From Thiogranum sp. (GTDB taxonomy: Bacteria > Pseudomonadota > Gammaproteobacteria > DSM-19610), in NCBI GenBank assembly GCA_030148915.1, contig JASBSN010000001.1:1-35667 (forward strand): a stretch of DNA of 35,667 nt, written 5' to 3'. Of the stretch, positions 10,680 to 14,533 are shown piece after piece. Positions within the stretch are counted from its first letter, which is position 1; every line of letters begins with the position of its first letter. Both the position numbers and the translations under genes were made by a program. The notes beneath the pieces were generated by a model that did no database searches, was not told the origin of the DNA, and saw only the letters and a list, made by a program, of their open reading frames with translations.

Positions 10680-12440
<1,761 letters not shown>

Positions 12441-12455
12441 TTAAACTTAAAACTG

Positions 12456-12461
12456 AGTGTA
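12456..12461 (-). promoter_or_regulatory. -10 element of the nirS promoter
   Basis: TACACT on the minus strand at 12461-12456 predicts transcription from about 12449. That puts the FNR-type box at 12483-12496 at about -41, the class II activator position. There is no good -35 hexamer, as expected for an activator-dependent promoter. Confidence 0.5.
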
Positions 12462-12482
12462 GGAAGCCACCGGCAAGCGGCC

Positions 12483-12496
12483 TTGACAAAAGTCAA
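12483..12496. promoter_or_regulatory. FNR/DNR-type box upstream of nirS
   Basis: TTGACAAAAGTCAA is a perfect inverted repeat TTGAC-N4-GTCAA of the FNR/CRP superfamily, here in the form used by NO-responsive DNR/NNR regulators as well. Its centre is about 41 bases before the inferred nirS start of transcription and 85 bases before the ATG. Confidence 0.8.
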
Positions 12497-12531
12497 CTGA
12501 AGGGGCGGGCGCTTCGCAGACGTTGTGCTTA

Positions 12532-12545
12532 TTGATGCAGATCAA
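12532..12545. promoter_or_regulatory. Second FNR/ANR box upstream of nirS
   Basis: TTGATGCAGATCAA is a perfect canonical FNR palindrome (TTGAT-N4-ATCAA). It lies about 90 bases before the inferred nirS transcription start and overlaps the last codon and stop of the upstream nirI-like gene. Confidence 0.75.
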
Positions 12546-14044
12546 TCCGCGGGGGAGCCGAGTTTTACTGCGCGTTCGCGTTTTTTTCTTTTCTCCGCCA
12601 GCGGTGGACATTTGTGGTTGTCCCAGTAGGTGACCTGGCAGTCCAGACAGTAGTGACATTCGTTGTCGATAATCTCGCCGGTCGGACGGATGGCGCGAAC
12701 CTCACAGTCGCGCGCGCAAAGCTGGCAGGGGCGGCCGCATTCTTTGCGCCGGCGTAGCCAGTCGAAGATGCGAAAGCGGGCGGGAAAGCTCAGTGCCGCA
12801 CCCAGTGGGCACAGGTAGCGGCACCAGGCTTTGCGCACCACCATACTGAGCGCCAAGAGGAGCAGCGCATACACCACAAACGGCCATTGACGCCAGAAAT
12901 GCAGGGAAAAAACCGTCTTGAAGGGTTCGACTTCGGCAACCAGCTCGGCGCGCGCCAGCGACTGCAAAGACAAACCGAACAGCGCCAGTAGGATCAGGTA
13001 TTTCAGCGCCCACAGTCGCTCGTGAAGAATTTCCGGCGGTTCCCATTGGGTTAGCCCGAGCCGGCGCGACAGGCGAAACAGCAGTTCCTGCAAGGCGCCA
13101 AACGGACACAGCCAGCCGCAGTAGACGCCACGCCCCCACAGCAGTACGGTAAAGGCCACGAATGACCACAACAGGAAAAGCACCGGGTCAATGAGAAAGC
13201 TCTCCCAGCTGAAACCGTGCAACAGCGAGTGGGTGAACGTCAGTACGTTGACAATGGATAACTGGCCGCCGGCGAGTGCGCCGATAAACACTACGGTAAA
13301 CAGCAAAAACAGCGTGCGCGCCAGCAGCAGCAGGGCAGGACGGCGCGCCAGCCAGTCCTGAAACAAGAGGATGCCAAGCAGTATCGCCAGGCCGCTGACC
13401 AGCACCGCGATGGACGGGATACGCGCGCGCCAGAGCTGTCGCCACAGCGGCTCGGGGGGTTCGAAGCTGAAGGCTCCGCCGCTGGTCGGGTGCAGCAGGC
13501 CTCGCGCGGCGGCCACCTTCTTGACCCCGCTGCTGACAGTTTGATTAATCACCATGCTGGTGATGGTGGCGCCGCTCAGCCCGTCGATAACCGACCGTCC
13601 GGGTCGTTGTCGGCCGTCGATACGGATCTCGTTGGCGAGCGGCAGGTGGCGATACTGAGCGGTAAACCGCGCCAGATCCGCCGCAGTCAGGCCCACCACC
13701 AGAATCGGCTCCTGGTGCCGGACGATGCGCACACCGGTAAGTGTTCCGTGCAGATCGAAACCGACCAGGCAGTTCACCGGTTTGCCCGAGTAGGCGGGTA
13801 TCGGCAGGACGTCGTCGGTGAAGAAAATATAGCCCAGTTTGCGCCCGTCCCGCAGTACCGGCGCTGCGCGCGGCACGCCACTGAAAGCGCCGATACTTTG
13901 CGCCCGCGGGAACAGCTCCTGCACCCGCGCCAGTGGCGTTGTTGCTGCGGGCGCGGCGCGGGTTACGCCCGAGAGCATTAAGAGCCCAGTCAGAACCGGG
14001 ATGAGCAGCAGGACGCGGGTGAGCATGGCGGTGGCGGCAGTCAT
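12542..14044 (-). CDS. nirI: NosR/NirI-family flavo-iron-sulfur membrane protein
   Basis: A 500-residue inner-membrane protein. Order: signal/TM start, a periplasmic FMN-binding domain (about 40-175) with DGLSGATITS, where Thr160 is the likely site of covalent FMN; membrane helices from about residue 210 onward; two polyferredoxin motifs in loops (YCGWLCPFG and WCRYLCPLG); and a cytoplasmic ferredoxin-like end with CGRPCQLCARDC and CHYCLDC. NosR and NirI support electron supply or expression of nitrous oxide and nitrite reductases. NosR is usually over 700 residues; this short form next to nirS suggests a NirI role (inference). The nearest possible FNR box starts only 40 bases before the ATG. 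ApbE, which would attach FMN, is not in the window. Confidence 0.85.
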   Translation of the reverse strand: MTAATAMLTRVLLLIPVLTGLLMLSGVTRAAPAATTPLARVQELFPRAQSIGAFSGVPRAAPVLRDGRKLGYIFFTDDVLPIPAYSGKPVNCLVGFDLHGTLTGVRIVRHQEPILVVGLTAADLARFTAQYRHLPLANEIRIDGRQRPGRSVIDGLSGATITSMVINQTVSSGVKKVAAARGLLHPTSGGAFSFEPPEPLWRQLWRARIPSIAVLVSGLAILLGILLFQDWLARRPALLLLARTLFLLFTVVFIGALAGGQLSIVNVLTFTHSLLHGFSWESFLIDPVLFLLWSFVAFTVLLWGRGVYCGWLCPFGALQELLFRLSRRLGLTQWEPPEILHERLWALKYLILLALFGLSLQSLARAELVAEVEPFKTVFSLHFWRQWPFVVYALLLLALSMVVRKAWCRYLCPLGAALSFPARFRIFDWLRRRKECGRPCQLCARDCEVRAIRPTGEIIDNECHYCLDCQVTYWDNHKCPPLAEKRKKRERAVKLGSPAD

Positions 14045-14083: not shown

Positions 14084-14097
14084 TTGACTAATATCAA
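14084..14097. promoter_or_regulatory. FNR-type box before nirI
   Basis: TTGACTAATATCAA reads TTGAC-N4-ATCAA, matching nine of ten conserved FNR half-site bases. It is 40 bases from the nirI-like ATG, which would leave almost no leader for class II activation, so it may instead repress or serve the divergent gene. Confidence 0.55.
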
Positions 14098-14158: not shown

Positions 14159-14172
14159 ATGACATAAGTCAA
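14159..14172. promoter_or_regulatory. FNR-type box of the DUF2249 promoter (repeat copy 2)
   Basis: ATGACATAAGTCAA is TTGAC-N4-GTCAA with one mismatch. It sits at about -41 from the transcription start predicted by the TACTAT element at 14194-14199 on the plus strand, so it fits class II activation of the DUF2249 gene. Confidence 0.6.
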
Positions 14173-14181
14173 GGTACAGGG

Positions 14182-14201
14182 GGATAGGATTGTTACTATC
14201 C
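14182..14201 (+). promoter_or_regulatory. -10 element inside an inverted repeat
   Basis: The -10 hexamer TACTAT (14194-14199) lies within GGATAG (14182-14187), 8 bases, CTATCC (14196-14201), a perfect 6-base inverted repeat. A repressor bound there would block the promoter. The repeat could also be chance. Confidence 0.4.
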
Positions 14202-14241: not shown

Positions 14242-14286
14242 ATGATACGGGCAGACAACGTTTCAATGCACCGGCTTGCACCCTAG
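14242..14286 (+). CDS. Possible 14-residue leader peptide
   Basis: ATG at 14242 is preceded by the best ribosome site in the area, AAGGAGG (14226-14232), 9 bases upstream. The frame encodes MIRADNVSMHRLAP and stops at TAG 14284-14286, 22 bases before the ATG of the DUF2249 gene in another frame. It may be a translated leader coupled to that gene, or the original N-terminus of it cut off by a one-base frameshift. Confidence 0.4.
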   Translation: MIRADNVSMHRLAP

Positions 14287-14308
14287 CCTGCCTTCGGTGC
14301 CCGGCCCG

Positions 14309-14533
14309 ATGCAACACTTATTGGATGTCAGCGGTCTGCCGCCACCGGAACCCCTGGAGCGCGTGCTGGACGCGTTGGCCGATCTGCCCTCGGGTGACAG
14401 CCTGAAAGTCAGATTGCCGCTGGAACCGGTGCTGTTGTATCCCATGTTGCGCAGTATGGGAATGCGCTGGGAACACAGCCAGAGGGCGGACGCGTCGGTC
14501 GAACTGCTGATCTGGGAAGAGCCGCCAGGGTGA
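14309..14533 (+). CDS. DUF2249 domain protein
   Basis: A 74-residue cytoplasmic protein made of one DUF2249 domain: LLDVSGLPPPEPLERVLDAL at its start, then LPSGDSLKVRL, EPVLLYPMLRSMGMRW and a final ELLIWEEP. The domain resembles the TusA fold, and such genes are often found near nitrate, nitrite and NO respiration genes; their biochemical role is not settled. The canonical domain start matches ATG 14309, which has no good ribosome site; a TTG at 14276 is an alternative. An FNR-type promoter upstream, divergent from nirI and nirS, suggests joint anaerobic control. Confidence 0.75.
   Translation: MQHLLDVSGLPPPEPLERVLDALADLPSGDSLKVRLPLEPVLLYPMLRSMGMRWEHSQRADASVELLIWEEPPG

Follow-up and report, generated by a model that had tools for sequence, protein, structure and literature searches.

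The window, by which we mean the whole analyzed stretch of 35,667 nucleotides from a Thiogranum sp. genome, carries the nirS gene for cytochrome cd1 nitrite reductase on its minus strand. Along this strand, a nirI-like gene is followed by nirS and then by a heme d1 cluster, which encodes a uroporphyrinogen methyltransferase, a cytochrome c, a second Cytochrom_D1 protein, siroheme decarboxylase-like proteins, and NirJ. The nirI-like product aligns with the C-terminal portion of NosR (NCBIfam NF046105, 622 bits, without reaching the cut-off of 1000 bits), and its gene goes here by the customary name nirI. Two FNR/DNR-type boxes precede nirS at a spacing of 49 bp, and all features of the region are collected in Table 1. 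The initial annotation had described both boxes as perfect and the upstream one as containing the TGA of the nirI-like gene, and both statements agree with the positions found. The boxes also lie well above chance, as the window contains three perfect TTGAN6TCAA sites against 0.20 expected from shuffling, and none of 100 shuffles reached three. Genome-wide, the pattern TTGAYN4RTCAA occurs 28 times and a reversed control pattern once, indicating that the motif is in use in this genome. The box centers were reckoned from the -10 hexamer TACACT (12461-12456), that is, from a predicted start. On the plus strand, a box with one mismatch, ATGACATAAGTCAA, was seen at 14159-14172, followed by GG and, 21 bases on, by TACTAT (14194-14199); this looks like a class II promoter of the divergent DUF2249 gene (14276-14533, Pfam PF10006), to judge from its layout. 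A weaker box copy, AAGACATAAGTCAA, lies between ATGACATAAGTCAA and the box at 14084.

Table 1. Features of the nirS promoter region and neighboring genes in the window.
Feature	Position	Strand	Remark
Proximal FNR/DNR-type box TTGACAAAAGTCAA (plus lettering), TTGACTTTTGTCAA (minus strand)	12483..12496	-	Perfect; predicted center at about -41.5
Upstream FNR/DNR-type box TTGATGCAGATCAA (plus lettering), TTGATCTGCATCAA (minus strand)	12532..12545	-	Perfect; predicted center at about -90.5
TGA stop of the nirI-like gene, within the upstream box in T-TGA phase	12542..12544	-	Box bases 2-4
nirS -10 hexamer TACACT	12456..12461	-	21 bases past the proximal box
GG directional mark, adjoining the proximal box	12481..12482	-	Mark present at 71/88 proximal and 1/24 upstream boxes
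nirS, cytochrome cd1 nitrite reductase	10680..12404	-	Pfam PF02239 Cytochrom_D1, E 5e-161
nirI-like gene (NosR/NirI family, 500 aa)	12542..14044	-	Domains FMN_bind, Fer4_5
Third perfect box, then GG and TAGCGT 22 bases on, pointing to the nirI-like gene	14084..14097	-	

For comparison, nirS promoters were gathered from the family of the window, a sample of 369 genomes representing its class, and two additional orders, as well as by a scan with the NirI-like protein. The class sample was spread across families without being exhaustive, many of the relatives are metagenome-assembled, and NirS starts were set by rule. The final set comprised 102 promoters after exclusion of NirS matches that had less than 66% identity, scored 250 bits or less, or started after residue 75. 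Near-duplicate promoters (L057, L060, L066, L158, L200, L203, L222) were left out, as were repeats of the window and loci with partial genes (L006, L007, L008, L022, L043, L047, L051), and 27 places at 48% identity or less do not enter these counts. An earlier set held 101 promoters under the same rules minus the identity limit, and the 82 of them with at least 66% identity were used. As the NirI-like scan was limited to the 80 best out of at least 581 relatives and is biased to nirI loci, the share of 61/102 promoters with an adjoining nirI should not be read as a frequency in the population. Of the 102 promoters, 88 had one or more perfect boxes within 300 bp of nirS, 24 had two or more, and 14 had none. 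Since 64 of the 88 carry a single perfect box and 14 of the 102 are boxless, a second box is not generally needed.

The two boxes of the window differ in their surroundings, and the same difference runs through the collected promoters. In the 82-promoter set, a TANNNT hexamer stood 20-22 bases past the proximal box in 34 of 69 cases, compared with 1-5 at nine control positions, and the hexamer peak over these 69 boxes lay 21-22 bases beyond; past upstream boxes, it was found in 1 of 19. The dinucleotide GG directly after the box followed the same division (71/88 proximal against 1/24 upstream boxes, p = 4e-12, 102-promoter set), and since a left-hand CC preceded the proximal box in only 10 of 88 promoters, the GG mark is directional. 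Reading the genome's 28 perfect boxes in both directions, a -10 was present in 7 of 12 directions with GG and in 7 of 44 without it (p = 0.006); two of the seven directions with both elements lie in the window. GG was also considered as a mark of DNR targets only, an idea that was rejected, as it follows boxes with a -10 at hemN-like, radical-SAM, and aldolase genes as well, so that GG marks class II sites and not one regulator. It could thereby serve as a simple sign by which accessory FNR-family sites can be told from promoter-proximal ones in this group.

The proximal box of the window, with GG and with TACACT 21 bases past it, is by its anatomy a class II activator site with a direction, in keeping with the position of about -41 given in the initial annotation, and its occupant would be a protein of the FNR family. 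The upstream box shows neither GG nor TANNNT at 20-22 bases toward nirS, and neither was found on the plus strand. With these elements at proximal and not at upstream boxes, the upstream box is to be regarded as an accessory site near -90. Over the 88 promoters, 24 extra perfect boxes lie upstream of the proximal one, against a mean of 0.065 and a maximum of 2 after shuffling. With both boxes also retained in the closest relatives (see below), the tandem arrangement can be taken as a genuine promoter plus an accessory site and not as a product of chance.

The initial annotation had suggested conservation of both boxes in relatives as a check, and this was borne out in the closest NirS proteins. 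A single tree, built by a quick method from the 102 NirS proteins, places the window in a branch of nine (SH-aLRT 84, below the 95 mark), alongside L023 from its own genus, six members of G271's family, and the Chromatiaceae record L054. Two perfect boxes are present in every one of the nine. They stand 49 bp apart in five (the window, L145, L201, L202, and L204), 38 bp apart in L054, L205, and L206, and 39 bp apart in L023, and the values of 49 and 38 bp are approximately one DNA turn apart. Outside the branch, L224 has the 49 bp spacing too, with one mismatch in its upstream box. In the alignment, the boxes are the best-conserved blocks upstream of the -10, and the DNA between them has diverged. 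TANNNT was present 21-22 bases past the proximal box in six of the nine and absent in L204, L145, and L201. No helical phase was shared over the 17 box pairs of the 82-promoter set (Rayleigh p of 0.27, 0.53, and 0.88 for 10, 10.5, and 11 bp), so the regularity of spacing belongs to this branch only.

Among ten other congeners with NirS of at least 70% identity (L024, L026-L034), a single perfect box is the rule, found in nine; the exception, L029, has two that are 180 bp apart. Because the congeneric L023 groups with the window and these ten sit elsewhere on the NirS tree, the window's nir cluster may have been exchanged with Chromatiaceae-type lineages, as far as the tree allows this to be read. 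A GCCGCG-centered motif was noticed a short way past the nirS -10 region in the seven branch members from outside the genus (L054, L202, L204, L205, L206, L145, and L201) and not in the window; it is perhaps a site for another regulator. The nirS promoters of L111 and L112 have three boxes, of which a one-mismatch box lies over the nirI stop and two perfect ones are 33 bp apart, a spacing common to five loci of one NirS branch (L095, L111, L112, L129, L130).

With regards to the stop codon, a perfect box whose TTGA supplies the TGA of nirI was found in 11 of 61 nirI-nirS pairs, and in 16 of 61 if one mismatch is allowed. Uniform placement of the 69 perfect boxes that these 61 loci contain would give 0.46 overlaps at that phase where 11 were seen, a count over related loci that are not independent. 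In the branch of the window, the overlap is present in six of the seven members with nirI directly upstream. L023, the closest relative (88% NirS identity), has kept both boxes with its nirI stop 105 bp before the upstream box, which suggests that the box is what is conserved. Mapped onto the tree, the overlap requires a minimum of 8 changes for the 16 rows, or of 7 for the 11 perfect ones, with gains and losses pooled, and a repeated gain appears likelier since the carriers sit on distant branches. Boxes in other frames were located in the last 60 bases of nirI at four loci, and eight open reading frames end in boxes at loci without nirI. As TTGA contains TGA, a box arising in frame at the end of a gene would become its stop codon, and sharing bases with the nirI stop might be an economy of space. 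In a narrow search of an open-access library, "overlaps the stop codon" and like phrases did not occur among the papers listed, and PMC3541799 makes no mention of boxes. The stop-codon overlap is an unusual, recurrent trait of a tandem FNR-family promoter, which is itself of a known kind.

The genome contains six matches to the Crp-type helix-turn-helix, five of them above the cut-off. Among these proteins, the FNR-type one is cysteine-rich at its N-terminus and resembles FNR structures (E 1e-76), and the DNR-like one matches the DNR structure PDB 3dkw (E 1e-40), so that the genome encodes both a cysteine-bearing FNR and a DNR-like protein, as looked for in a denitrifier. The recognition residues E..SR are shared by these two and by a third Crp/Fnr-type protein, L017. 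E..SR in the recognition helix reads TTGA, and L017 could on its residues be a further binder of the boxes. All 8 relatives searched from the branch have a DNR match (59-79% identity) and an FNR match (52-72%), with G517 used in place of L054, as their promoters are near-duplicates; the FNR match of G009 has one internal stop, and four of the 8 have a second, weaker FNR match. Boxes were also seen beside the regulator genes themselves. A perfect one separates the DNR-like gene from a divergent gene for a small cytochrome c, its GG pointing toward the latter (L138 / L020, G000 contig 108), and another separates the FNR-type gene from the ompW-like gene that follows it (G000 contig 51, L132). 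FNR control of ompW is reported for E. coli. In G009, the sister genome, a distant and presumably nirN-like NirS relative (28%) is the neighbor of the DNR match on the nirS contig.

The presence of both regulators invites the reading of the initial annotation, in which the half-sites TTGAC and TTGAT would allow sensors of NO and of oxygen to act on separate boxes. We consider this quite improbable. T-type halves make up 30 of 48 at upstream and 22 of 48 at proximal boxes (24 upstream boxes and their partners, Fisher p = 0.15), and the combination of a C..G proximal with a T..A upstream box is kept in only three of the nine branch members (the window, L023, and L202). Half-site discrimination was accordingly rejected on 82 and then on 102 promoters, with no systematic difference by position, and the two proteins have the same recognition residues. 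In Dinoroseobacter shibae, a single nirS box, TTAAC-N4-GTCAA, serves both DnrD, which is required, and FnrL as a co-regulator (PMC5398030). Another paper gives one consensus for both regulator families and describes the means of discrimination as unknown (PMC6152468).

Our main reading, to which we assign a probability of roughly 0.6, is that of an FNR/DNR-activated nirS promoter with a conserved accessory box that would act on nirS in either direction. Here, the NO-responsive DNR-like protein would occupy the box at about -41.5 as a dimer, possibly with FNR as co-regulator, and activate nirS from this class II site, and a second dimer at about -90.5 would alter the output by contacting the polymerase from upstream. 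Given this architecture, damping would come closest to even odds among the possible effects, co-activation would be a strong contender just below it, and a lack of effect would be rather improbable. In E. coli yfiD and in melR-derived promoters, a second FNR dimer at -85 to -95 represses (Green 1998; Barnard 2003; both as described in PMC11264516). Damping is slightly favored because these closest measured cases by position were damped by the upstream dimer; the box of the 38-bp members lies near -79.5, outside this repression range, which counts against a damping effect shared by the whole branch. A more specific and speculative idea, which we hold to be unlikely as it stands, is that the second box is a brake on a positive loop, in which NirS forms NO, NO acts through DNR, and DNR raises nirS again, so that, when much of the regulator is active, the second dimer at -90 or -80 would cap the output. 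If this were true, the box at the nirI stop would be a recurrent way to fix the spacing, found in two families within the branch and on distant branches.

The opposite sign is expected if the upstream box works as a class I site for co-activation, where the second dimer would recruit the alpha C-terminal domain and raise nirS output; this possibility overlaps with the main reading and is, on its own, a minority view to us. The spacings of 38 and 49 bp, being about one turn apart, speak for it, and the resulting positions of about -80 and -91 are close to the values of -82 and -92 given for E. coli in PMC6152468, though both are 1-3 bp off. It is weakened by yfiD, the nearest natural tandem promoter, which PMC11264516 describes as damped via its upstream site. 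That the upstream box is a relic with no effect on nirS would fit the many perfect-box promoters with only one box (64/88), but such a relic would hardly have stayed perfect in all nine branch members despite the diverged DNA between the boxes, nor would 24 extra boxes be expected where shuffling gives 0.065, and we regard it as improbable. Least probable of all appears a second promoter driven by the upstream box, as an upstream nirS start or as an antisense start into nirI: a perfect palindrome can be used in both directions, but the missing GG and TANNNT on either side of the window's box, and the single hexamer among 19 upstream boxes, argue against it.

Conserved two-box nirS promoters whose two main spacings differ by about one turn, found beside many one-box relatives, constitute a natural test set, with which the effect of box number and position on NO production in denitrification could be addressed. 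Compared with known systems, the arrangement resembles yfiD and the melR derivatives in combining a class II box with a second FNR-family box near -85 to -95 (here predicted at -90.5). It differs from them in preceding nirS, in the co-occurrence of an FNR-type and a DNR-like protein in the genome, in the box that shares its bases with a stop codon, and in the existence of 38-bp variants. With the nirS promoters that depend on DNR in Pseudomonas and on FnrL/DnrD in D. shibae, it has the TTGA-type palindromic box and the presumed DNR-type activation in common (PMC1274295, PMC5398030). In the D. shibae case, one box was shown to control the nirS promoter (PMC5398030), whereas here two perfect boxes are kept throughout the branch.
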